DNA from: Owenia fusiformis
Lineage: Eukaryota > Annelida > Polychaeta > Sabellida > Oweniidae
Direction: 5' to 3'
DNA: 64,000 bases
Assembly (NCBI GenBank): GCA_903813345.2
Contig: CAIIXF020000001.1
Coordinates: 17,505,915-17,569,914 of the forward strand
Below, one piece after another: positions 7,401 to 60,951 of the stretch; positions within the stretch are counted from its first letter, which is position 1; each line of letters starts with the position of its first letter. The translations under genes and the position numbers were made by a program. Below the pieces are notes generated by a model. The model was not told the origin of the DNA, did no database searches, and worked only from the letters and a program-made list of their open reading frames with translations.

Positions 7401-10400
7401 TGACAAGGATCACAATGTACATGGTCAGAATGACCCTGAACATGATGAAATCATGGTATTACCTTTTCAGCCCTTTGAAAATGTGACTGAAAAATAGCTA
7501 AAAGTAGGAGCTAGGGAAGGTCAATGAACAGAATCTTTTGAATTTTTCAGAAAATGTGCCCAATATAATGCTTTTACTGATACAATCTTTGAAATTTTAG
7601 AAAATTGTCTGAAACAAAAATGGCGGTCATAAAAAGGAAAATAAATCGCTTTTCAAATCAGTTTTTTCATTTATTTTCTTTTTCTATGAATGATATCAAA
7701 TTTTCAAAGATTGTATCATTCATTCATATTCATTCATTGTTCAAAAAATGTCTAGAAATGCAAAATGTTTTGTCACTTCCTGTTTTGTCATTTCCTGTTA
7801 AGTATCATGACACTTTAATCCAGACTCTTTAAATGTTGAGGTGATTTTGGAGCCAGATTACGCCGCAAGAAGAATTGGCTCCCAGAATGCAATGTGACAT
7901 GTGACAGCTTTCAAAATGCAGTTCCGCCATTTTGAAATCTGTCACGGGGTTAACTGATGTTGCATGCTGGGAGCCAATCCTCCTTGGATCATAACAATGG
8001 CGGTCCATGAAAACATTCATTCGATTTGGTAGGAATTTATCATTTGGAGGTATGAAGCTTTGGATTCATTTATTGTGCTACTTACAGTGAGCGGAGATTA
8101 TTTTTCTACCATTTGGATGAGTTTGAGACATAAAACTTAGAATTTAGCTCATTGTGACAACTTTTGATGGTTGAGGTTTATTAAAGTTTTCCAGTGAATC
8201 TGTCATGTTATTTTTTTCAGAATTAACATTGCAGAGAAGCATCAAAATATAAGAGGATACAGACTTTATAAGCAAGATATTATTCAAAATGGTGAAAAAA
8301 TATTCAAAATGCTTTAAATGATTTAAAGGAACATGTCAGAAAAATATTTGCTGTTTGTTTCATTATATTTAAATGCAAAACAACTATATTGTAATATTGA
8401 ATTAGCAAATTGTTATCAAATGACACATCCCTATCCTATCTGTATATAAAAGCTGTCATTCAAATTGATGTTTTTCTACACTCTGATCTTAGCCAAAAGG
8501 CAGAGAAGCGAAACTACTGTTAACATTGCTCCTTATATTATATTCAAAAGTGCATCAATGTCTTCTATAATGCCATGCATGCATTTGGCGATTGAAGATA
8601 ATTTTGTAAATGTAACTAATGATGATAATTGATCAATAAATAAAAAATAAAATAAAATAATGTTTTTCTACAAAAAATACGTAATTAATTGGTAAAATCA
8701 GCGAGGTCTGGGGCAAATCACTCAAAATTGGATTTTGTAGTTAATATACCAATATTTCAGGAAATTTACTCCCTTTTATTAAGTCAGAGAGGAACTTTTA
8801 ATCATGAGAGGAAATTGACATGGAAAAAATGCTCAAAAAGGGTTTTTTAGGTGCAGGACATAGGTATTAAGAGGTATATTGGAGTGAAACCCCCGGGGTT
8901 CTGTTTGGATTGAAAACAGATGAAAAGGATTTTGAAAGTAGCCTGCCTTATGATTTTTGAATTGCCTAAAATTAACAATGAATAAGATTGTGTTTCAGAA
9001 TGCTGGTACCACGGGGTACCATCGAATAATTTTGGCAACGTACCGGAGAACGACATTTTACTAAGAAATGGCAATAATTTAGCACAATATATTTTTTAAC
9101 TAGAGTTCTATTTTGATTTTGACAAAAGTAAGTATTCCATGCAATAACTATTTCATTCATGAGTTTGTAGGAATTCTGTTGGAACCCAGTTCTGATCTAG
9201 TACGAAGTTATTGAAATCGGCGCAGTCGGACTTTACTCCGAAAGATGGTTTTTCGATTATAACTTATAGGCCCTATGCTTTAAATCATATATTTTATTTT
9301 TTTAAATTACATAATTCAACTGATCTGCTCCGGTTACGTTCCCAGCTCCGGTTACGTTCCTAAGTAATATTTTTAAAACTTTTTTTTTAATTAAACAAAT
9401 CAGAGTCGTTTGAATCAGAAATAACAGAATTATTCAATAGTATAAGGACTATTCTGTACTTTTTTCAAAAGTCTATACTTAAATGTTGTAAAAAGTTATA
9501 ATCGAAAAACCATCTTTCGGAGTAAAGTCCGACTGCGCCGATTTCAATAACTTCGTACTTGATCAGAACTGGGTTCCAACAGAATTCCTACAAACTCATG
9601 AATGAAATAGTTATTGCATGGAATACTTACTTTTGTCAAAATCAAAATAGAACTCTAGTTAAAAAATATATTGTGCTAAATTATTGCCATTTCTTAGTAA
9701 AATGTCGTTCTCCGGTACGTTGCCAAAATTATTCGATGGTACCCCGTGGGTACAAGGTCACCCTGCTGGTCCATCCAGAATAGCATAATATTACATCTAC
9801 CATAACTTGACATTGTTGATTTGAGGGCAGCACAATCTTAAAAATAAGTTTCACATATTCTGATTACATTGGATAAGACTACAGTATAAGCCAAGGTGGT
9901 TTAACTTCATACATGGCCTTTGAATTCTTCTCTTTTTCGGACACTGATACTGATATCTGAAATCAAACGAATGGTCCCTAAAATTACAAGATTTACAAGT
10001 TTTACAAGTTTACAAGATTTACACAATTTATACTCTACCCAGACTTTTAACAATAAGCCAACACTGGGGTTGCCATTCCAGAACTTTGCTTATATTCTAA
10101 AAGGACACTCCACTAGAACCAGACCTGCAATAACAGATTTTGCCACAAAAATTGCAGAAGGTTTTCACAAATGCTCACAACACCAAATTCAAATAATGGG
10201 AAAATATATAGAAATACATTATTTAAGTGTTTTTTTAATATGTGGTTATGTTTCATGTACATATATTTGCAGGAGTTGTTTGTACAAGACTTGGCTAAGA
10301 CAATACACAAAAAATCAGGCAGTGGTAAATCAGTTTCTTATAAAGATCTCTCAACTCTGGTGGATGAAGAGGAAAATATGCAATTTTTACAAGGTAAACT

Positions 10401-11622: not shown

Positions 11623-14102
11623 ATTGTACAAATCAGTATACTTGATTCCAGTCTTCAATCATCTTACTTGTAATGTGTCCATGTGGTCCATGCTTTTTAG
11701 TACATTATGTAGATTGTCAGAATTGAGTGCTATTCTAGTTAAAAAGTTTATGATTTACAGTCTACCAGAGATGTCAGGTCATCCATTATAACATTTTGTG
11801 TCACTATATCCGAGAACATCAACATCTGCATTGTTAATTAATTACAGAAAATTTTGGATCTAGCTTAGCAATGATATGTGAGTAGATGACAAAGATTTCA
11901 TTGGGTTTATTAGAATGTATTACATGAATGCATCGGAAATAGCTTAATGGTGCATTTATCACTGACGGATCGAGTAAATGCAGTTGAAATTATTTGTTCA
12001 AGTCTAAAACTTTTTAACAACATTAAGCTATTGCACTAGGGCTGTTATATAGATATTAGCAAACTAACAATTGTTCTTCCTTCATAATTTAGATTTAATT
12101 ACACTATACTTATCATTAATTCGTCATTCATGGTTTAATTACTTAATGCTGCAGATATCAGGTTCCTTGTCTGGCGCGCGTCAATTACTATGAGAGTAAT
12201 TTCATAAAATGTAATAAGAGGTGCCACATTGGCTCATATATTTTTACGAAACAAAAAGTGTTGTTCCAACCAATCAAAAAATGATTCTGAAATGAAATAT
12301 GAAGTCATAGCTGATGGGCATAAATAGAATTCATCTTCACTAATTTTTGCAGGGACTCAATATGAGTGATTGCACACATTTAATAGAACATATTTCACTT
12401 ATCAGATTGAGTCATTGTTATCACTTTTTAATGATGATTGAGTCTTATCAACTTTGCTAGGGATAATATCTCGTCAAATATACTCCAGGTCCCCATGAAA
12501 GCATAAATGGATTGCCACGAAGCATATCTGAGTAGCCAATACTGTTGGAGCATCTAGCTGTCTGTGGTGTTTTAAAGACTTTAAGTTGCCAAATGAGTAT
12601 TAAATCTGCAATTTCAAATATAATAATGCTGTAATTAAAAATCTTTATTTTTTGGTATTAAGTTTAATAAAAAAACTTAGCTATAATATTTTAATGACTT
12701 TGTGAGAAAGATGAGATGTCAATGTTGTATCAGGTTAAGCTTTTAAATGAGTAAATCTACTTTTCTGATCCATTTCCTCGGTTCTGAGCAGGGATGGATG
12801 TGTCATCCGATAACCAAGTTTTTATTTCTAGGGTTTGAATCTCACAGTTGCATGACTGGCAAATTGCCAATGGCAACCAGTTTCCACCCTTTGCAATAGA
12901 CTTTGAAAAACAGTTGCCCATTGGGCAATGGATTGAATGCCAATATGGTAAATTGTGGCAACCATCAGTTTTATCCTTAGTTGTAAACCCAGTCTATTTC
13001 ATAGTTTATTTCTTGGATCATGGAATTCATCAACTGACCATGTTTTCAGGATTAAGGTATATCTTCATCAATTATAGACATAATTCCACCTACAATTGCC
13101 AGGTTATGAACCTGAATGCCTTTATACATACATTAATTCCAGAGGAACTTGGTTTACTTTCGCATCTCATAAAAATACTAAATACAATTTCATAAATACT
13201 ATGCATTTTTATTCTTAAAATATATTGCTACAAATGTACAGATAATATTCTTGTCAAAACTACAATATAAAAATCAGCCACAAGTTTTTGTCACTCATTG
13301 CAAAGTTTGGGTCTTTTTACGTCTTTAGATTGGCAAATGAATTTTCCAAAGCAAAGAAACCCATTGTGTCTTATATTAATAAACATATGTATATCAGAAC
13401 ATTTACATATTTGGTATGGCAACAATCATTCAATTACATGTATTAAAATTGAAGTCTGGTAGTTCATCTGAGAAAATAAGGAAATTTAATTGTTCTCATT
13501 CAAGTCGAAATAAGGTTTGGGTCAATGTGACCAAGTCAGCTGTTTTGTATAGTCATGGCGTATCAACAAAACCAAATTGAGCATTGTTCAGTTGTTAGGG
13601 ATTGTGAAGCACATCAAATGACAGCTCCAGGAGGCAATAAATTGAATAGGAATTCTGTATACTACATGTATATCTAATATTTCCAATAAAGCCTTGAGAG
13701 CCTTGGAAAATGGAAGTTCTAAATTTCAGCTAATTTTTTCATTTAAGAACATGTTCTCACATTTTTGCCGAAAAGCTAAGCATTTAAAAGACTTCAAAGA
13801 CAAACTCCCTAAAATTAGGGTAGAGAAGAAGTAGATCAGCTATAAAATAACAACCAAGTATGTGATATACACAAATGTATGATGCACTGTACTACAAGAC
13901 CTTGAGGAGAAGCTTTATATTACACAATGCTGCAAAAAAACAAACATGAATGGATTTACAATGATTAAAACAACAGTAATATTGCATTTTCTGATTAAAC
14001 ATTTATATAGTCAATACTCATTCACCAGTTGACCTTATTTGTGTCGTAAAGATCAGATATTGACTCATGAACACATTTATTCACCTGTCTATTTTGGTAA
14101 TA
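11623..14102. other. Intergenic stretch, CHRAC1 to CYS1
   Basis: AT-rich sequence with no supported gene, RNA or clear repeat. Short frames, including one at 12848-13195, show no domain or splice context. Confidence 0.5.
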
Positions 14103-14836
14103 CAGGGTGTTCAAAAAAACGCAACCCAAAGAAATCGCTATATCTTGGGAAACACTAATGCAATTATGTTCAGGAAAGAAAGAAGAGACGTTTGTATACC
14201 TCCTGTAGTTGGTAAGTTATAAAACTTGATGTCTTAGACACCTGCTCAAAAGACATTAGTATTGGAAAGATACGAAAAACGCAGTCAGGGGTGACTGCCA
14301 CAGCAATAAAACCGAATAACTTTCTAATCATAGTGTTTTAGCTCTTCAAATTTGGCACAAATCATCTTCATTCAAGGTATGGTAAATTTGTAGAGTGAAA
14401 TCAAAATCACTCCAGGGACTTTACAGATATGGTCGAAATGCGTTCAAAACGCAGTCAAACACCCTGGTTCAGGCAGACTTAAGAAGGTATTTTGACCATG
14501 ACTGTAAAGTCCCTGGAGTGATTTTGATGAAACTCCATTAATTCACCACACATTGAATGAGGATAATTTGTGCCAAATCTGAAGTGCCAAAACACTATGG
14601 TTAGAAAGTTTTTCAGTTTTATTGCTGTGGCAGTCAGCTTTGACTGCATTTTTTGTATCTTTCTAATACTTATGTCTTTTGAGCAGGCGTCCAAGGCTTC
14701 ATGTTTCACAACTTAATAACTACAGGAGCTCTACATGCACAGTATCTTCTTTCTTTCCTGAAACAATGAGTGCAATTGGATAAGTATTTTCCAAGATATA
14801 GCGATTTCTTTGGGTTGCATTTTTTTGAACACCCTG
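14103..14836. mobile_element. TA-flanked, wholly palindromic Tc1/mariner-type MITE
   Basis: The element begins CAGGGTGTTCAAAAAAA and ends with its complement ...GAACACCCTG, each end next to TA (14101-14102 and 14837-14838), the target preferred by Tc1/mariner transposases. The two halves are reverse complements along almost their full length (for example TCCAGGGACTTTACAG at about 14412 and CTGTAAAGTCCCTGGA at about 14501). It encodes no transposase. Confidence 0.8.
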
Positions 14837-15049
14837 TAATTCATTACTTGGCAAAAAAGGTGGCGCTATTATGTACATTTACACCAACAGTTCACAAGAT
14901 AATTCAACTAGATATTCATCACAAACTAATATTCCAATATCAGAGTTGCATTTTCTGGCTGGTTCACATTGTACCAATAACCAATCCAGAAATTCAGATG
15001 ACCAACATTTAATATTCAATGGGACAAGTATATTTTAAACAATATAGAT

Positions 15050-15742
15050 CAAATTCTGTTTGATAAGAGATCAAATTTTGTTTTCATGTAGCTATGTGAA
15101 TTCAAATCAAACTGATTCTATGTCTGATAATAAATTACACTCTGTGTCTGAGTTTGATTAAAAATCAAACTGTGTTTCTATGTGAATTCAAATCAAACTG
15201 TGTTTCTATGTCTGATTATAAATTACATTCTGTTTTTAAGTTTGATATAATCAAACTGTGTTTCTATGTCTAATAATAAATTACACTCTTAAGTTTGATT
15301 AAAAATCTGTGGAAGTTTGATTAAAATCTTTGTTTCTATGTCTGATTATAAATTACACTTTTTTCTAAGTTTGATTAAAAATCAAACTGTTTTTTCTATG
15401 TCTGATTATAAATTACACTCTGTTTCTAAGTTTGATTCTAAATCAAACTGTGTTTCTATGTGAATCAAAATCAAACTGTGTTTCTATGTCTGATTATAAA
15501 TTACACTCCTAAGTTTGATTTTAAATCAAACTGTGTTTCTATGTGAATCAAACTGTGTTTTTTTATGTCTGATTATGAATTACACTCCTAAGTTTGATTA
15601 AAAATCAAACTGTGTTTCTATGTGAATTCAAATCGAACTGTGTTTGTAGCTGATTATAAATTACACTCTGTTTCTAGGTTTGATTATAAACCAAACTGTG
15701 TTTCTAAGTCTGATCATAAATCAAATTCTGTTTCAATGTCTG
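15050..15742 (-). repeat. Minisatellite (25-30 bp units) in the CYS1 3' UTR
   Basis: About 24 tandem units of 25-30 bp. On the minus strand the unit reads like GAAACACAGTTTGATTTATAATCA. Two unit types (TTTGATTTTTAATCA and TGTAATTTATAATCA) often alternate, making a higher-order repeat of about 58 bp. The first unit overlaps the last codons and stop of the cystin-like gene, and the next two units keep the same reading frame and stop codon. Confidence 0.85.
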
Positions 15743-18700
15743 CGATGAGCTGTTCTTCTGAGATATCATAGTTTATGGATGGCTTCTTACTGGAAACAAA
15801 CAATTTAAAGTAACATTACATTTTGCATCAAACCATATTTGAATCTTATATATCATGATTCAATCAGATCATATTTCATAATACTAAGACTTTACAAACT
15901 TTTAATGTAAGTATCATGTCTATACGCTATATTATTTGGTGTATATTATACCAAGTTGATATTTTTTCATTTATACAGGTGATTTGTGTACCTTTTAGTT
16001 GCAGATACACCCCTTGTATTACTTGAATCTTCTAAAGCACCTACTGTAGTGGAAGCTAAAAATAAATATAGAATATTTATTGAGTACACTCACACCCCTG
16101 AGGGTCAGGTACAAGAAAGTGTAATACATAAAAAGAATATACATTGATTAGTAAGCATAAAACATGTACCATATGGTAACCATGAAAAGCATTGGAACAT
16201 GGCCAATCACAATATTTTTGAGACCATAAAGCATTTGTGGGAAAACTGTAGACCTCGCTTGCAATGTTTTCAACCTAGATATCTCAGATTCTAGAATATT
16301 TAGAATGACTTACTTTTTGCAGGACTACCTCCATATGATCCGAATTCATCCTATAATAGACCAAACAATAGATATAAAATATCAACTATAACATATAAGA
16401 ATAAGCCTTATAGCAATCTTATAGGCAATAAGCCTTATTACATCCCCCATGTCATTTATCTACTCTCTCGTGATCCGGGTATGAGTCCAACCTTTCCTTC
16501 CAGCTGCATTTTTAAATAACAATTAAAATGCTATATCAACTATATATCCAATTAACTCCTGAAGAAAAAGCCTCTCCATGTCATTATTCTCGCTTGATTT
16601 CCACTTTATTTTTAAAAAAGTACAGCTATGCATAATGCATCTTTAACTTCAGTTACAATTGTTCAGAAATATTAATGGGCTACAATCTGTTAGACAATCT
16701 GTATTTGAAATTGGATGTTTTATGAATATAAGAATTTTTCCAGTTATAGGTTATTCAAATGAAATTCAGACACTTTTTTCATCAAAATCAGCAAATGAAT
16801 ATATTACCATTTAATTTATTTGGCATCCCATTAAACAAACTAACACTGTTAATATATATCTGTTGATACATGAAAATAATTCCTCATTTTCTCAATGTGA
16901 AAAAATCAAGAGTTATACCCTGATTACAGATAATGCCTCTTTAAGTCATGTACTATGGTCTGGAAATTACCATGCTAATGAACAGATAATGCCTCTTAAA
17001 GGGTAACGCTTATTGTTTAGCAAATCAAATGCTCGTTTTTGGTGTTGCTCACCATTTAGTACAAAATAGAATCTGGGACCTATTGCGTAAGAGGTATCTG
17101 TGCTACTGCTGAGCTATATGGTGGACTACTAGTATAGATCACCATGCATTTATCAATGGGAATTTTTTATTTTGATGATCAATTTTACCTTTGATTGCTG
17201 AAGTTTCAGGATCTTCTGTCTGTGTTTAATTGAGAAATTGATATCTTGATCTACCTATACCGAGTATAAGTACAAAGCATGGTCTTATGAAATGTTCTAC
17301 TTATAGTTGAAACTATCAGTGACACAAAAATAAACTATTTTAAACTAAACTAAAACTAAAACAAAACGTTTTGGACTAACACAAGGATTTATATTTGTCC
17401 ATGAATCCTTTGGATAAGTCACACACCCAATCTCTCAATATTTACAGATTGACATGAAGACGATTTGAATAAACTGGAATGTACCGAACTCCCCTAAATA
17501 GACTGATCCAGTGGACTTGTCTGGAGTCTGTAACATGGTCTAAAAACACCATGCTAATTAATAGATAATGCCTCTTTAAGTCAAGTAACAATAGTCTGGA
17601 TGCCATGCTAATTAAATGAACAGATAATTTCTCTTTAAGTCATATAACCATGGTCTGGAAAATCTTAAGCCTCAATGAGACCAATGAGCTCCATTTTTAT
17701 AAGATCATAACAATATACTTGGAATAAGCAATCAATAAATGTTACCATGTTAAAGGTTCAAAACATTATTTAATCATTGATTATGATCTGAGGCAAAGAT
17801 ATATGTACAATGTAAAAATGCCTGAAAGACACCAGTGTTATGGTGATATAAGGAGAGTGGGAGTACTCATCGTGCCAATACCTACTTTACATTATTTCCC
17901 ATAAGGGTTGATACATGTTCAACAACTTATAATTTCAAGATTGGAACGAATATAGAAAATCTTGTTATTTCAAAAAACAAATGCTGTTTCATCGATAACA
18001 AGAGGTATTTGAAATGATGTTACAAAAACATTTTAAGTCACGTAATAAGAAGATTTATGGGTAGTTTGAAAATATTGTTATTCTGGTACTAACATTCCAA
18101 TCAAATAACATGGTAACATTGAGAAATTAATATATATTTTAAATCCTTCAATCTACCCAGAAATAAATGTTATGCTTTTAGGGTATATGTGGCACCCTAT
18201 ACTCCCACCCAGAAATAAATGTTATGCTTTTAGGGTATATGTAGCACCTATTCCCTTTTCCCACTACAACCTGTAAATATGTTTCATTGATTTTAATTAA
18301 AAAAAGAACTTTCTTTTGATCTCAGACATTATTCTGCCATCTTATACTCTTTGGAATTATCTGAGTGGGATTTTACAAGCAAGAAATAAGAACAACGATG
18401 AAAATATTGGCTTAATTATAGGCTCTCAGGCATGCTATTCATCAATCTCATCCCATTCAATTTGATGTCTTTGGAAGCTTGTATTAATTGGTAACCTTCA
18501 TGGATTAGAAATGGAATCTCAATTAATTTCACTTTCTCACTTAAGTTAGCAGAATAAGTTTCAAAATTGAAAATTCTGCTTGTACATTTTTAATTCTAAA
18601 TGGTCAGTTTGAGAGAGTTATCACTATACTGGATGTATTTATAGCCACAGAAGATAAAAATCAATTGCTCTGTCCTATAATTGTATTGATTGTATCACAC

Positions 18701-21700: not shown

Positions 21701-22913
21701 ATCAAAATAATCAATGTTTCAAGGCTTGAATTCCTTAGCAAAGATTAGTGGCAAAGTATATCACACTTGATCTGAAATACTAAACAGTTTGGGAAATTGT
21801 GATCATAATGCTTTTTGGTAATTAACTAAAACACAGTGAAACCTGGGAAGTGGAACACCTCTAGAAATGGAACACCTCTGTTAATTGAACACATGGGAAG
21901 TGGAATACCTCTGTTAGTTGAACACATGGGAAGTGGAACACCTCTAGAAATGGAACACCTCTGTTAGTCGAACACTTTCAGAGTCCCAATACCAACTGAC
22001 TTAATGTTAAATGAACCTAAGTGTTCCACTTAGACAAGATTCATTGTACTGCATATAAGATATACCAGCCCCCATAATTTTAATTTTCCAAACTATGCTT
22101 TTAGATACTGAACCTCATTTGAATATACATGTACAGTGAAACATGTTTAGTAGAACAAGAACCTCTAGAAGAAGAACACCTCTGTTAGCGGAAACCTTTT
22201 CAAGAGCCCCAAGACCAACTGATTTAATGTAAATAAACCTATATAAGTGGAACATCTCCCAACTAGAACACTTGTAGAGGTACCAAAGTTGTTCCACTAA
22301 GACAGGTTTTACTGTAGGCCTATACATAATATTTTAAACAGTAATTTAACATCCATCTGCTTTATACTGTTAACCTATAAGTGAATAACTTCAAATGTTT
22401 ACTCACCTCTTCCAGTTTCCAATCCTCTGAATTGCGATCCCATTGGCTAGTTGGTTTCTCTGACCCTAATATTAAATCCTGCTCATTTATATTCTCCCGA
22501 TTTAAATTCTGTTTAGCAATTTTTTGAGCATAAGACTCTGGATATTCCTCCTGAGAAAGTTTTGAATTTTTATTGTTGTATTCCATGAGGATTTTCTCCT
22601 CTTCCTCATCAGTATCCCAGCTTTTTTGAGAAGTCTTGTCATCAGTTTCCATATTGTCTTTAGGTTGGGCTATATCTGTAGCCCTATTTGACTGTTTAGT
22701 TGATTTTGAATAATCTGTATTAATTGCACTATCCAAATCCTTTTCTAACTCATTCGCACTTTCTTCGTCATACACATTATTTTTTGATTTCTCATCCGGT
22801 TTTATTGTACATGTCACTGTTTCTTCACCCCAATCGTCAGTTGTCTCAGAATCACTACTTTTGATTGTTTTCCCATTTCTTGGAGATTGTCCTTTTGAAC
22901 CTCCAGATCCCAT
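15714..22913 (-). CDS. CYS1: Cystin-1-like ciliary protein
   Basis: Cystin is a myristoylated ciliary-membrane protein; its loss in the cpk mouse causes polycystic kidneys. Five exons join in frame: 22913-22407, 19248-19195, 16350-16314, 16055-15992 and 15789-15714, giving 245 residues against about 145-158 in mammals. The start MGSGGSKGQ is an N-myristoylation signal (Gly2) as in mammalian cystin (MGSGSS). The end, KKPSINYDISEEQLIADIE, matches the family tail KKP...ISYDHSEEGLMASIE. The middle of exon 1 is long, acidic and low in complexity (DTDEEEEK near residue 100), which explains the extra length. All introns are GT/AG (GTGAGT, GTAAGT, GTAAGT, GTACAC). The small middle exons are the least certain, but phases agree throughout. 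The stop codon lies in the first unit of a tandem array. Confidence 0.72.
16351..19194 (-). other. CYS1 intron 2, with short direct repeats
   Basis: No gene seen. Several imperfect copies of a unit containing AGATAATGCCTCTTTAAGTC occur at about 16929-17000 and 17535-17665, and a 52-bp tandem duplication (ACCCAGAAATAAATGTTATG) lies at 18155-18255. Confidence 0.55.
21834..22046. mobile_element. CAGTGAAACC-type MITE, copy 1
   Basis: Starts CAGTGAAACCTGGGAAGTGG and ends in a degenerate complement (...CAAGATTCATTG) next to TA. Internally carries several copies of GAAGTGGAACACCTCT. Ends suit Tc1/mariner/pogo non-autonomous elements. Confidence 0.55.
22134..22314. mobile_element. CAGTGAAACC-type MITE, copy 2
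   Basis: CAGTGAAACATG at the left and CAGGTTTTACTG at the right, flanked by TA on both sides. Same family as 21834-22046 and 49966-50125. Confidence 0.65.
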
Positions 22914-30100: not shown

Positions 30101-33100
30101 TTCTTATGGCCTAAGTAGTGTATGTAATTAAACGCTACTTATTTTGAATGCTATGATTCGGAAGTGACGTCACGTTCTTCATTTAGAAACCTTTCCAAAA
30201 TCATATTGCGGCTCCGATCGAAGCAAATTCAATGAAAAATCTTTGAAATGACACATTTATCGTAAGTATTTCTACACAAGATTTGCCCCATTTGTTCATC
30301 ATTCTATAATCTTTCATTAAGCTCAAAATGATAAAGTTCACCCCCGAAACAACCCAAGATTGCGTTTTGGAGCGTAGTCCAGCTTTAAATATAAATACAT
30401 GCATGTTGTAAATGACTATACCTTTGGGGATATTTTTGGGCTTTAGCTGACTGAGAATTTTGGCATATGGAGCTATCTCAGTGGAACCTTTCAGTGAGTT
30501 CCAAGCAGTCATGAACTCATATGGTGTAGGCTTACTGCTCAGGTGTGGTGTAGAAGGTGCTGCCTTAGGTAAACCTGCAACATGTGCAGACTTCAGCTTA
30601 TCATTCAAGCAAAAACTATTACATTAATAAAATAATAAAAAACAGAAAGTGAAATTAAGTCAGACCCAATGTCTTTGAATGTATTCTTTAATCTAAATAT
30701 ACATACTTCTTTTGAAATTATTCTACATTGCTTAAACTGAACTGAAACTGAAAGACACTATACATTTTTCTTAGTAATTTCTCAATAATATGTAACTTGA
30801 CTCTGTTTAGGTTTAGAATTTAGTGAATGAAATATTTTACCTGCACTAGTTTCCACCAGAGTGCTTGCTTTTTTCACCTGTTCCTTTTGCTTCTTGTCTT
30901 TTCCAGGTGTCTTTTCTGGACTTCCTGCTCGTTTGCCATCAATACCTTTTGTTATTGTAGATTTCAATTCAGTTATTTTTTGGGTTATTTTTCCCGGGGA
31001 TTTTTTCGCCTCTTTCCTCTCATCATCTGAAGAGCTCCCCACTTCCTCAATGGTGATTTTCTTGCCTCTGGTCAGAGAAGCACTTGAGCCAGGGGACTTC
31101 ATTTCAGTCAATTGCTGAAATTAGAATGTGAATCGCAATTATTATGGCATACAGTAAGTGCAAAAATATTGAAGATTCAATAAAACATCAAGAAGTGAAA
31201 ATGACCAGAGCTCTCTCATAGCACAGTAGTTTTCCAACACTGATCCGCCCTGACTTCTACCTCATTTTCCCTTGACCTGATGATAAATGGAATAACATAA
31301 CAGTAATGACATGTTATACTGCAAATCAGTATTGTATCACTATGCTATGTGCTACATATGACTGAAAATGAACAAATGATTGATTTGTCTACCGGATATG
31401 CAGAATAATTGCTCATCTCTTTTCACTCTGACAAACTATTTAAAACTGGCTGCTGGACAAGTATCCCTGCTTTCTCAAAACAATTTTGCATCTTAAATTC
31501 CCTCCACAATTTAGTCAACTTTGAGATAAGATGAAATTTTTAGATAAGGGAAATATAATTTTGTTTTCCCCAAAAATGTTCCAACAAAATTTCATACCTT
31601 TTTGTAATACTGTTTCACCACATCAGCTTCTTTCTTAGCAGCAGAGTTCTTAGGGTCAAGTTTCAGCAATGTCATGAGATCTTCCAAACTTTCCTTATAC
31701 TGCATGAGCATCTGAAATATGGAAATTTACAACATTAGGTACCAGATCGATACTTTTACATAGTCCCAAAACATAACACATAACATATAAGTTTGTATTG
31801 ACATGTATTGACACCCAACTCATAAAATCGAATATTCTTTATTTTCTTTATAAATTAAAGCTCCTTTTCAAAATTGATGTATGATAGAGACCAATTTTCA
31901 ATGTGCATGTGAACCTTTGGTCTGTGTTTTCTATGTACCAGTATATACATGATTTTACCACATTTCTCTCACTCTGACAGGTAATCTACATCTTCAGAAA
32001 GAGAACCATAATAGCTATAAACAGTCAATTAGTTTTAAGCCGGACTCTACCTTTCTAGCTTGAGCTCTCCTGAACAAAGCCTTGATATTCTGTGGCTCAT
32101 ATTTCAGCACCACCTTACAGTCTTGTTCAGCTTGTTGAGGTTTGTTTATCCTCAGGTAGCACAGGGCACGGTTAGTGTAGCTAACAGGTCTTTCTGGGGC
32201 CAGTGAAATACATCCAGTGTAACACTCTATAGCCCGACTGAAGTTACTCTGAAAAATTCAAAGTATTCAAAATTCAAAGTATGTATACAATTTCTAGATT
32301 GACACAATTGTGTATCATAACAATGAAACTGATTTCAAAAGAACACCCATGGAAAATATGAATGTGGTAAAGAACTATAAGGTTAAGCTTTTCAAATTAG
32401 TGGTATTTTAATTTTCTACTAATGATTTATTTCCATAGAAAAATATAAATAAAACATACATGTGTTGCAGTATTTTAATACATCCAATATTTGTGGTTAT
32501 ATACACCCTTACCTTCTGTACACAGTCATTCCCCTGAGCTTTTAGGTTATCAAATTTGGCATCAATGTCCTCCCCATTCCCAGTGAGCAGATTTGTCACA
32601 GTTGAACTTGCTTTTTGAGACTCAGAAACAGCTGCCTACATTAAAAATTACATAATTTACTAGAATGCCTTTAAATGGACATTGGCCTTTCTGAAGCTGA
32701 CATTCATTTTATGTTTAAACTTACATAAATAGCGAACTGAGCGACATTTAGCATCATTGAAATCTAAATCGAAAAATACGACATTTAATTTATATCTAGA
32801 TTCAATAGGTGATAAACCCTAAATGAAAGCTCTTTCTACTTACTTGTGTGGTGGTGACATTTGTTGTGATGGTGGTTGATTTTGCTAATCCACTTCCAGA
32901 CATTGTTGTTATCACTGGGATTTCATGCTTTTGGATAGGGGGAATTGTGGGTAGTTTTTCCCGCCATTTTGTGCCATCGAGGGCATTAAGCATTTGGCTG
33001 CACCTGGATGAACCCTGCATGGCATTGTCAACGCTGTTGTCAACTTGGAGCACATGTTTGTAGTCGATATATGCTAACTGATATCTGAAATATAGATGAA

Positions 33101-36100
33101 CCATAAGTAGCTCAGATTTATATGACATAAACTCTTCCATCCTCCGATCACGGGGTTTCAAAATGCAGAATATCTTCTTTCTTTTTACACCCCACTATAA
33201 GCAGTAGGCATTTCCCCGATTAAGAACTCGCAATTTGATGTATACGTCGTCGGTGCATAATTAGATCACACGACTCAGTTTAATCCGGCGCTTCCAAATT
33301 GGTTATAGCAGGGGGGAAGAAGGAGGTAGGATTCTGGACACCTGCTTAGGAGGATGAAACTCTTTCTCATGCTATTATCTGCTTGAATTTGCAATTCTTA
33401 TCAGCTTATCACTGACCTAATTTTAAAGAAGAAGATCATGTTTGGGCGAGCTGGATTCAGCTGAGGATAAGCCAATGATCAGACTGGATAAGAAAAAGAA
33501 GAATTGATTTGTTCCTGCTGTAAGTGAACCCACTGACCTCCTCGACTTGAATCCAGGGAAATCTGCCAGCATGACTGGACAAAAAGCCCATCTTAGAAAT
33601 TCTTTTTTAATAAATAATTACAAAATCCTGCATAATGCTATTGAGTTACAAGACTTACTTTTCCATAGTCTCATATGCAGCAGCTCTTCGTAGGAGAGGT
33701 TTCAATGAATGAGGTACGAGATCTAGAGCCTTGGAACAGTCATCTACACAACCTCTGCAGTCCCCTATCTTAGTCTTACAAGCTGCTCTGTTACTGTACA
33801 ATGTGGAGATGTTCACCTTCTGTTTGTCTTTAGCTACAATAAATGGTATAACTTTCAAGGTACAACCAAACTTCATAGAAATATGCTTTACAGCTAAAAA
33901 TTACTGAGACAAGATTGGGAACATATATTAGATTAGATCAAGTTATTTGAATGTAGTTTTATGATCATAACATTTTAATGAAGTGATAAGATTTTTAACT
34001 ACATTATTCCTTTACATCAATGGAAATTATATCAAGAAGGATATGACTAGAACATTAGTCACTCTGACACTGACAAGACCTGAGAAAATCAAACTCAACA
34101 GAAGTATTCTCCAGATTTGTATCAGGTTTGCACTTTACATGTAGAGGGTTATGGTACTAGTATACACTCAAGACTACAGTGGTGTTATGGTAGAATTTAT
34201 GTTATAGTGGATGGCTGTTACATATCATACCAGGTAGCAGTTTCTCAATTGCCAAATTGTACTTCTCCACAGCATGTGCATACTGTCCTGTCTTGAACAG
34301 TTCATTTCCACTTTCCTTTAGTCTTCCTACACTGGATGGCAGAGGTGGCATCTCAAACACAGGCCTCTTTAATTCATCCGTTGGTGTCTCCTCAACAACA
34401 ACAGCATCAATAACCTTTTCAGTGCCTTTCTTAGGATCATTAATTTTATCAGTATCTTCACCCCTAAGACATGACATTTTAGTCATAGCTCCTCCATCTG
34501 TTTGTTCACGTTTCTTTATAGTTCCTTCACCCTGAGATTTTGAGTCGATTTCCATAGTGTTTTCTGGCTTGTTGATTAGATCAACAGGAGTTGAACTTTG
34601 TTCTGTATTAGCATGTCCATTCACCATAGGTGGCTCAGAGGTATTAGTTGTAGCTTGAGTAGATTGCTCTTCTTCTGATTCTGAGTCACTATCCGTCTCA
34701 ACTATCTGTATCTTCTTGCCTTTCTTGGTGACAACTGGACTGTCTTCTCTGAAATAGTAAGGCATGCACCGACCTTTAATAACTGTACTATTTGATGGGC
34801 TCACATAGTGAAACAAGGCATCAACATGACAAAATGTTACCACTTTGTAAGTTATTGCAAATTGCTACAGACATTGAACTCTGACTGGCAACTATTGAAC
34901 ACTGTCCACAAAAAATTGGAGACTATTGTCAATATGTTACCACTTGTGGTGCTGACATAAAAACTAATTTTCATAAAATAAGGCAAAAGAAGAGGAGCCA
35001 GGACCTGGACCTACAAAAATTGAGCATTAGTTCAGATAAATAGCAGTTTTCTTTGTCCGAAAATTGTTGATGGAAAGATAAATGGAAGGACAAACAGAGG
35101 AATAAATAAAAATTTTAGAGTAAGATTAAAAAAATTAACTTATTAATTTTTCTGAATTCCACTAACTTTTTTTGTTCCTCATCTGATTCTTCCATCTCGT
35201 CCACCTCTTCAATGACCATTCTCGTTCCTTTCTCCTTCTTCTCAGCTAGTTTCCTGTTCAGACTGGCAAGAATATCCTACAGGTAGAAGTTAAAAGGATA
35301 CATTGTAAAAATGGGCAGATTTCGAGTGTACATTCGATTGTGTTGTACATATTCAATGGTTTTCAAGAGTGCATTGTTCAAATGAGCCTTGGTTCATGAA
35401 GGATTAATGCATGTATGTATGTTAAAAAATCTACAGGAAAATAAATTTCAACAAAGGAAAAATGTAGACCTAACTAAAGCACAGAGTATATGTCTCATAA
35501 TTATATCTGCTGCACAAAAGGTCTGTTATCTACCTCCTATATTGTATATGGCATGCTGCGTGACTCTACAAGCATCCCAAATCTTAGGAGGAACATGTTA
35601 ATATAGAGTACATCAACAATTAATTTGACAAAAAATGACCATACACTGGGTTATCTTGAAAAGTAAGCATGCATTCGGTAAAATAATTCTTTGAAAATAT
35701 CTCAATTTCTTCTTTCTTTTACAAGCAATTTTTACCTTGGCACGTTTGTTAATTGGCTCAAGGGCCAGGACCTTCTGTATATCTGTCTTAGCATTCACAT
35801 AGTCCTTCTTTCCCTCTCGAGCAACACCTCTTCTTAAGAAAGCTACAATACGAAACTCACATTGCAATATGGACATCAAAATGTAACCTCACATTGAGAT
35901 AATACAACACATGATCGAGATATCAGAAATGTCTCATATAATAATAATTGAGATCTTCAATTTACAAGTAAAATTATTAATTTAATTTCTTCCGAGTGGA
36001 ATTGGATCACCACTTAAGACACTGTTACCTCCGCTTGGACCTTAAACCAGAATTAACAAACTGAATCTATAAATTCTTTTTGGCTAAATTGGCAATTTGA

Positions 36101-39100
36101 GGAATTTTCATCCATATTTTCAATCTGCAAAACTGAATGAACAATTTTGAATATAATATATGTCCTACCTTTTATATTATCAGGCTCGAGGCTAAGCACT
36201 GTATTGCAGTCTTTGATAGCCTCATCCCAATGTTTTAACTTCAGATCTGAAAAAAGGAACAATATGGATATCTGTCTATCAGGTGGTCAAATACTTGTTT
36301 TGAAACAAAAAGCCATGCCTCTGATTTTTCCTACAACTCAATATACCATTATAAATTTCAATAATTTCTCAGGTTACTTGTTCATGTTCAATAAAATCTT
36401 GAGCCCAGATTCAATTTCAAAAAACTGATCCAAATCCCCAGCTTTAAAATCTTAGATCTCGGATTCATTTTCCATTTCAATCCCTTAACCAGGATTTTTG
36501 GGGACAAAATCTCAACCAGGCAGTATTGAAAAATGCATCCATTTAAGATCACAGAAACATGCAGATGATTACTCAAGCTTACATGCCAGGGCTCTGTTGT
36601 TGAAGGATGCAGCAGTTGAAATGAGAGAGAGGCTCCGGGAATAGTATGTTATAGACTCCTCAAAGTCACCACAACGGAATGCCTAGAAAGAGAAAAATTT
36701 TGATTATTGAATGAATGAACTTCATTACATAGTCATCAGTGAAGCTGATCAAACCATAATCTGCACTGTTTGTTCAATAACTGCAGTTTAAAATGGTTAA
36801 AGCACTTTTTACATCAGCCCTATGATGACAAGATGTAACATTTCATATTATACTTATATAACATGGCAACAAGCAATTTGATAGATTGGTTTAGAGTCCA
36901 TGAATTGAATTGAATTGAAAGAGTAATATACAGCACAAAACCTATATCCAGACAACTGAGTGTCACAGAGTAATTCTAAATCAATACAAACCTCATTGCC
37001 TTTATCCTTTTCTCTGTTTGCTTTCAGCTGTCTTTCTTCAGGAGTCATGTCTATAACAGAAGCAGACATTAAAATAAAGTCAAAGGAATTCAATACTATG
37101 TTTACAATTTGTTGTTTTTCATAAATAACACATGAGAAATTCTTGGGAACAAATGACATGTTAAATGTGTCCACACACAATTTCCCAATTGCTGTACTAA
37201 TGCAATCTGGATCCATTTTACTGGAGAAAGTTGGTTAACCAAGGGTAAAGACAGAGAACATATTTAAATTGAAAAATAGTTTAACAGTTTCCATAATGAT
37301 TATAAGACAAAAAGGTTGTTTTCAACGCATTGTACATTTATAAGAAAAAATCACAATGCTCACTGACATTGTAGAATGTGTATTGTTATTGTATATATTA
37401 TAAATTGTGTAAACCAGAACAACTGCAACGCCAAAGCGTAGCGAATCCCATCGAACAGCCATGGATGGCATTTTTACAAACAAAGTTTATAGCAAAAATG
37501 GCAGGCATTTTTCAAAATGGCTGCCTTCTACCAAAAGTGTCATTAGACCATTTGCCATACTTATAGTATTCACATACCAAATATGAACAAAATTGCTCCA
37601 CTACTTTTTGAGTTATAGTAAAATACGTTAAAATGGCGGCTATTTTTCAAAATGGCCGCCTTCTACCAAAAGTGTCATTAGACAGTGTGCCATGCTTACA
37701 GTATTCACATACCAAATATGAACAAAATCGTTTCACTACTTTTCGAATTATTATAAAATACATTAAAATGGCGGCCATTTTTCAAATTTTTTTTCAAAAT
37801 GGCCACCTTCTACTAAAAGTGTCATAGGATAGTGTGTCATGCTTTTAGTATTCACATACCAAATATGAACAAAATCGCTCCACTATACTTTTCAAGTTAT
37901 AGTAAAATACGTTAAAATTTCTACCAAAAGTATCATTAGACAGTGTGCCATCCTTATAGTATTCACATACCAAATATGAACAAAATCGCTTCACTACTTT
38001 TCGAGTTATAGTAAAATAGGTTAAAATGGCGGCCATTTTTCAAAATGGCAGACATTTTTTAAAATGGCCACCTTTTACCAAAAGTGTCTTTAGACAGTGT
38101 GCAATGTTTATAGTATTCACATACCAAATATGAACAAAATCGCTCCACTACTTTTCGAGTTACAGCAAAAATCGTAAAATAACGAGTAAAGGCCGCCATT
38201 TTTCAAGATGGCTGCCATGTGCTTCTTTAATATCTACATTTCTAGCTTTATTAATGTCCTATATAATTTTTTTACATCTAAAACATATTGCTATTACAGT
38301 TTTACATATTGCACCTAAATTCCTGTAAATTCGGCACTAAAATGGCCGCTATTTTGAAATGCTTTCGAGCAGAACTTCTAGCCCCATAGGGTATATGTGT
38401 ACAAAATATGAACAAAATCGGGCCAACGGTATTTGAGTTATTGCCCGGACGGACAGATGGACGGAGGCGTTCCCTGTATCCCTCCGAACTTCTTTCGATT
38501 GGATAATTACCTTTATCTGATATTGTGCTGCTGATGTCACCCAGTCCTGTTTTGCTGTCTCCCATTTTTTTAACTTTCTCTTTGGCATCTTTATCAACCT
38601 TTTCACATTCCCCCTCAATGTCAAACTTATCCCATTCGTTGTAGCTTCTAGGCTTAACAGACTTCTTTTTCTGAGATTCATTCTTAGCTGCAGTCTGGAA
38701 AAGAACAGTAGTTCACTGAAGGCATGTACAGTATTAGCATATTATCCGATAATTTGGTATTCAAAAATTTGGTTGAAAGTTCTTATCCACTGCATTGACA
38801 AGAACATGATAAAAAATTAATGGTACACATGTATGTTTAAAATAAGTGTAGTAAAAGATCTCCTCAAAGTGCAATTGTTCATACACATACATGTAGGAGT
38901 TTATTTCAATAATCATGTAACCAATCATAAAGTTACCTTTTTATCAATTGGGATACTTTGTCCAGTGCCTCTAATGGGTGGAAGTTCTGGTTCCTGGCCA
39001 CCATCTGCCACTTTCATTGTCTTAATGTGCATCTCTAAGTCTTTCGTCTCCTGATGCCAGTCCTTAAGTTCATTGTCGAGGGCAGCTTGTTCCTCATATG

Positions 39101-52015: not shown

Positions 52016-60951
<8,936 letters not shown>

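Follow-up and report, generated by a model that had tools for sequence, protein, structure and literature searches.

Slippage between short repeats can turn unique sequence into a minisatellite, and the founder units of such arrays are hard to identify. Minisatellites of 3' untranslated regions (UTRs), of the variable-number tandem repeat (VNTR) type, include one with a 40-bp repeat in the gene for the human dopamine transporter. The protein that bears on the locus described here, cystin (CYS1), is a myristoylated ciliary protein. We analysed a window, meaning the whole stretch of 64,000 nt of Owenia fusiformis DNA under study, and searched the 498-Mb genome in one assembly. The window holds a cystin-like gene whose last codons are also the first unit of a tandem array, and we find that this array probably grew outward from the coding end.

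The coding exons of the gene, all on the minus strand, are predicted as follows.

22403 to 22913, minus strand: probable first coding exon, beginning MGSGGSK; its 3' end is uncertain.
15992 to 16055, minus strand: candidate middle exon of 64 nt, predicted, which joins the terminal exon in frame.
15714 to 15789, minus strand: terminal coding exon, encoding SKKPSINYDISEEQLIADIETEFDL followed by a stop; its first codon is split with the preceding exon.

The MGSGGSK start at 22913 is of the N-myristoylation type and heads a long open frame, for which two donors come into question: GAG/GTGAGT, ending the exon at 22407, has the better consensus and is out of frame with the candidate middle exon, and A/GTAAAC, ending it at 22403, is the only one of the two that is in frame. 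With the 22403 donor the predicted three-exon frame comes to 216 residues, and an additional small exon may be absent from this set. The terminal exon starts at 15789 behind a TTTCCAG acceptor and closes with the stop codon TGA at 15716-15714, and a search of the 498-Mb genome with its peptide gave one match.

The name cystin is used because the MGSGGSK start resembles that of human cystin and the C-terminal tail appears to do so too. The tail INYDISEEQLIADIETEFDL ends at the same place as the human tail, for which we take the pattern YD.SEE.L.A.IE.E(Y/F), and shares 11 of 20 residues with it, a count that none of 200,000 shuffles reached; the identities comprise 3 of the last eight residues, which are derived from the unit, and 8 of the 12 just before. 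We treat this likeness as a pointer to the family, short of a test. PMC11240719 gives the human start as MGSGSSR, so that MGSG.S is common to it and to the predicted MGSGGSK, which has the MGSGxS N-terminus of cystin, its myristoylation being putative. Necdin binding needs the last 25 residues of cystin, according to PMC3859662, and the terminal exon here codes for 25 residues. In contrast, the ciliary targeting motif of mouse cystin, AxEGG, as named in PMC10731465, is missing from the protein read from the predicted exon set, which at 216 residues compares with 158 in human and 145 in mouse (same source); non-mammalian cystins may not need AxEGG. No Pfam family matched either of the two frames submitted at E up to 1, and Pfam may hold no cystin model; no solved structure matched the first 35 residues of the predicted protein, and its tail peptides were not found in the literature searched. 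With the absence of AxEGG counting against cystin, "cystin-like" is the safe term.

Elsewhere around this gene, a short tandem array with 17-, 33- and 50-bp periods occupies 21837-21975 in the predicted first intron and is, by eye, unrelated to the 3' array. Upstream, one of four frames tested, at 32015-32257 on the minus strand, is an exon with tetratricopeptide repeat (TPR) families, its best solved-structure match being sperm-associated antigen 1 (SPAG1; E 1.1e-28), and, judged by eye alone, other minus-strand frames from about 31500 to 37000 may be additional exons of a SPAG1-like gene.

The array itself falls into two parts.

15711 to 15740, minus strand: seed unit U00, the last nine codons (DIETEFDL-stop) plus TCA, which form the first unit of the array.
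15040 to 15710, minus strand: the 3' array, 24 further segments of 21-36 nt (U01-U24), cut by eye, of types A, C and B.

An earlier sequence-only reading, which describes the feature well, had placed DIETEFDL-stop-S at the coding end, where we also find it (15740-15711), and had the next two units continue in frame with a stop, which they do, 15710-15681 reading DLETQFGL-stop and 15680-15651 NLETECNL-stop at 30 nt each. It had described an array of nearly 700 bp from 15050; 25 head-to-tail segments including U00 divide 701 nt without remainder, and recognisable units run from 15740 to about 15040, slightly past that limit. Its "two alternating unit types" are partly right, because the third type, C, is a variant of A: types A and B are present, with three A-B pairs (U01-02, U12-13 and U17-18), but four A-C-B trimers of 79-88 nt (U03-05, U06-08, U09-11 and U19-21) include the shortened form. 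Typed by eye, U01-U22 comprise nine A, four C and eight B units and the truncated U15, left untyped; type A units begin GACATAGAAACACAGTTTGATTT, type C is type A minus its first two bases, and type B units are AACTTAGAAACAGAGTGTAATTTATAATCA. U14-16 form a triple with the truncated unit in the middle, and U22 is a lone A. Mean identity between units at lags 1-7 is 0.769, 0.797, 0.886, 0.766, 0.853, 0.814 and 0.794, peaking at lag 3, and the trimer order is not clean because lag 5 is also high. The array is most likely a minisatellite, ordinary in kind: its units (25 segments of 21-36 nt) stand in tandem in several copies within the roughly 10-100 bp usual for the class, and the unit-to-unit identities, together with how the coding unit scores on the profile relative to its null, indicate kinship by descent and not by composition.

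Membership of the coding unit in the array is borne out by a profile built from the inner units U02-U22 only, on which U00 scores 30.7 bits; among 126,242 other positions of the window, both strands included, none exceeds 14.0, and the highest score in 10 Mb of Markov-1 simulated DNA is 17.0. Tandem Repeats Finder, run as that reading had proposed, puts the array edge of several of its rows at 15739-15742, inside the coding sequence. A chance resemblance of two AT-rich stretches might be read from gapped local alignment, where the coding unit scores 19 and the best of 42,048 sampled background 30-mers 18, but this lead is narrow because the method ignores register; in register, every other window position and all simulated DNA stay at or below 17.0 bits, and the matching position abuts the array. 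Chance is thus a very unlikely source of the likeness. The DNA match and the peptide match are not independent, because random synonymous codings of the unit peptide already score 14.3 on average, 604 of 5000 reaching the 18 scored by the coding 27 nt. An earlier duplication within the terminal exon, upstream of this unit, was considered and rejected, since 30-mers lying wholly upstream of the coding unit score 7-10 by gapped alignment, within a background whose mean is 8.6.

Within the genome, the type A/C pattern has 8 of its 11 matches inside the array, the other three being no more than the reversed control yields (4), and the type B pattern has all 7 of its matches there (control 0). The whole array was found once, in a search that skips very common words and so gives lower bounds. 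A dispersed repeat or transposon as the source of the units was rejected, as the unit patterns rise above control level only in this array, and without further copies above that level there is no outside array on hand as a donor.

Repeats of other kinds lie nearby. About 200 bp beyond the array, a palindromic element at 14101-14838 has arms that are 84-95% complementary; in a genome search with 14090-14850, 40 of 646 candidates were scored and all 40 matched (itself and 39 others, 87-95% identity), and the element is a foldback-type (MITE-like) repeat, structurally unlike the array. A long inverted duplication at 8847-9783, with mirrored open frames giving identical peptides on both strands, is probably another foldback element. 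Tandem arrays at 37495-37918 and 52342-52593, with units of 135 and 136 bp and a similar AAATGGC-containing consensus, likely belong to one dispersed family.

The direction of growth was addressed by asking whether differences from the coding unit are silent, with an expectation of 13 in 81 (16%). In nine comparisons with the coding unit, silent changes made up 4 of 5 differences for the type-A plurality consensus (P 0.003), 3 of 4 for both the A template and type C (P 0.015 each), 3 of 5 for the all-inner consensus (P 0.032) and 3 of 7 for type B (P 0.087), and, among single units, 3 of 6 for U01 and for U12 (P 0.056 each), 3 of 7 for U02 (P 0.087) and 4 of 7 for U19 (P 0.015). These comparisons are not independent, each counting four to seven differences that share one common history, and some vary with the choice of consensus. 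The two edges of the array, U00 and the last unit, U24, share the states AACAGAATTTGAT. U24 agrees with U00 at 17 of 21 positions and with the inner consensus at 16; one of the shared states is also present in seven of the eight B units and the other in U18 and U23, so as a mark of the ancestral unit they are suggestive only.

Conversely, a pre-existing 3' array may have supplied the tail, either through loss of an earlier stop or through an exchange that replaced the original last codons, and the coding unit is in register with the array and scores as one of its members. When exchanges between the coding unit and later units were simulated, 12-16 of 24 cases ended in a tail no longer than 10 residues. 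However, the tail up to its stop fits human cystin at equal length, and this alignment of tail and stop would then have to be a coincidence; the type-A differences are mostly silent, and no array was found elsewhere in the genome, although repeat searches can miss matches. We therefore regard an array-supplied tail as rather unlikely. Outward growth, which the sequence-only reading had also favoured, is the probable direction: in-register homology, mostly silent differences, the lack of a second locus above control and, as a lead, the fit of the tail to human cystin all point that way, short of proof.

Under outward growth, the cystin-like gene would first have ended in a short tail resembling that of the family, and a stretch of about 30 nt, which took in the last nine codons together with the bases just past the stop, would have been tandemly duplicated, either through slippage in replication or by unequal exchange. 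The new copies, all placed past the stop codon, would thereby have escaped coding constraint and could have diverged into types A (with its variant C) and B, after which unequal exchange would have spread them partly as A-C-B blocks until they filled the space from the stop codon to the poly(A) site. The first copy would have been kept as protein by selection. We infer the mechanism of slippage or exchange, the direction of growth and the transcription of the array as 3' UTR.

Two further readings concern what the array might do to the protein. The gene end and the array could co-evolve, the coding unit having seeded the array and exchange or conversion being able to rewrite the last eight residues in return; we consider this a long shot, which if true would mean that a single minisatellite determines how long the 3' UTR is and also how a ciliary protein reads at its C-terminus. 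The repeated in-frame stops could alternatively act as a fail-safe that preserves protein length if a contraction of the array reaches into the gene, in keeping with the retention of frame and stop in U01 and U02. However, for the three crossover points simulated, 16, 12 and 12 of 24 exchanges kept the tail to 10 residues or fewer, against an expectation of 54% in random DNA of like composition, which does not support such a role and leaves it next to no chance.

Past the stop codon, the first candidate for a poly(A) signal lies just beyond the array.

15008 to 15013, minus strand: ATTAAA, the first AATAAA or ATTAAA past the stop, starting 27 nt beyond the array end; a consensus match only.

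Neither AATAAA nor ATTAAA occurs between the stop codon and 15013, and hence neither occurs in the array, where the weaker variant CATAAA is found at 15567; another, AATATA, lies at 15034. As it follows the stop codon and precedes the first ATTAAA, the array probably makes up most of the predicted 3' UTR of about 700 nt.

Folded as sense RNA, 15713-15001 is more stable than 20 of 20 shuffles (z -4.06), as is its antisense (z -2.35), an excess expected on both strands because the repeat contains six exact dyads, of which one is shorter and the other five have the form GTTTGATTTNNAATCAAAC. Folding as DNA gave z -2.07 and -2.33 for two trimers (8 and 2 of 200 shuffles doing as well), z -1.54 for the opposite strand of the first trimer and z +0.89 for the coding edge. 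Folding thus showed hairpins in the inner units tested and none at the seed unit, and those of the inner units may have helped slippage. Bearing on the suggestion of the sequence-only reading that unit number could alter mRNA behaviour are the placement of the array ahead of the first ATTAAA and this modest excess of folding. The array could conceivably have a function in the 3' UTR, its dyad hairpins binding a factor or acting on mRNA stability, translation or the choice of poly(A) site, given the six exact dyads, the folding of both strands and an array free of AATAAA and ATTAAA. However, 10% of sequences simulated from the array composition also lack both hexamers, which makes their absence not unusual, several units are truncated or have no dyad, and the folding test used only 20 shuffles per strand. 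Moreover, low folding energy is expected without selection, because the dyads are symmetric in DNA and were repeated by amplification. Function is on this evidence improbable, and neutrality of the array is our default.

The titles and abstract openings covered by our literature search hold no like description of a minisatellite at a stop codon, and we make no claim that none is in print. Should the array prove neutral, it would be no more than a clear example. Relatives with and without it would test how such arrays begin and how selection acts on an edge unit beside a free array. As in other minisatellites and VNTRs, the units are about 30 bp, head to tail, with variants and a partial higher-order arrangement, and one locus was found; as in minisatellite birth by slippage, a single-copy stretch appears to have become a founder unit. 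Here, in contrast, the probable founder straddles a stop codon, marking growth with a reading frame, and because it carries both frame and stop, the register and the probable direction of growth can be read. What makes this array notable, beside the minisatellites compared, is that its first unit and probable founder can still be read as the end of a coding sequence.
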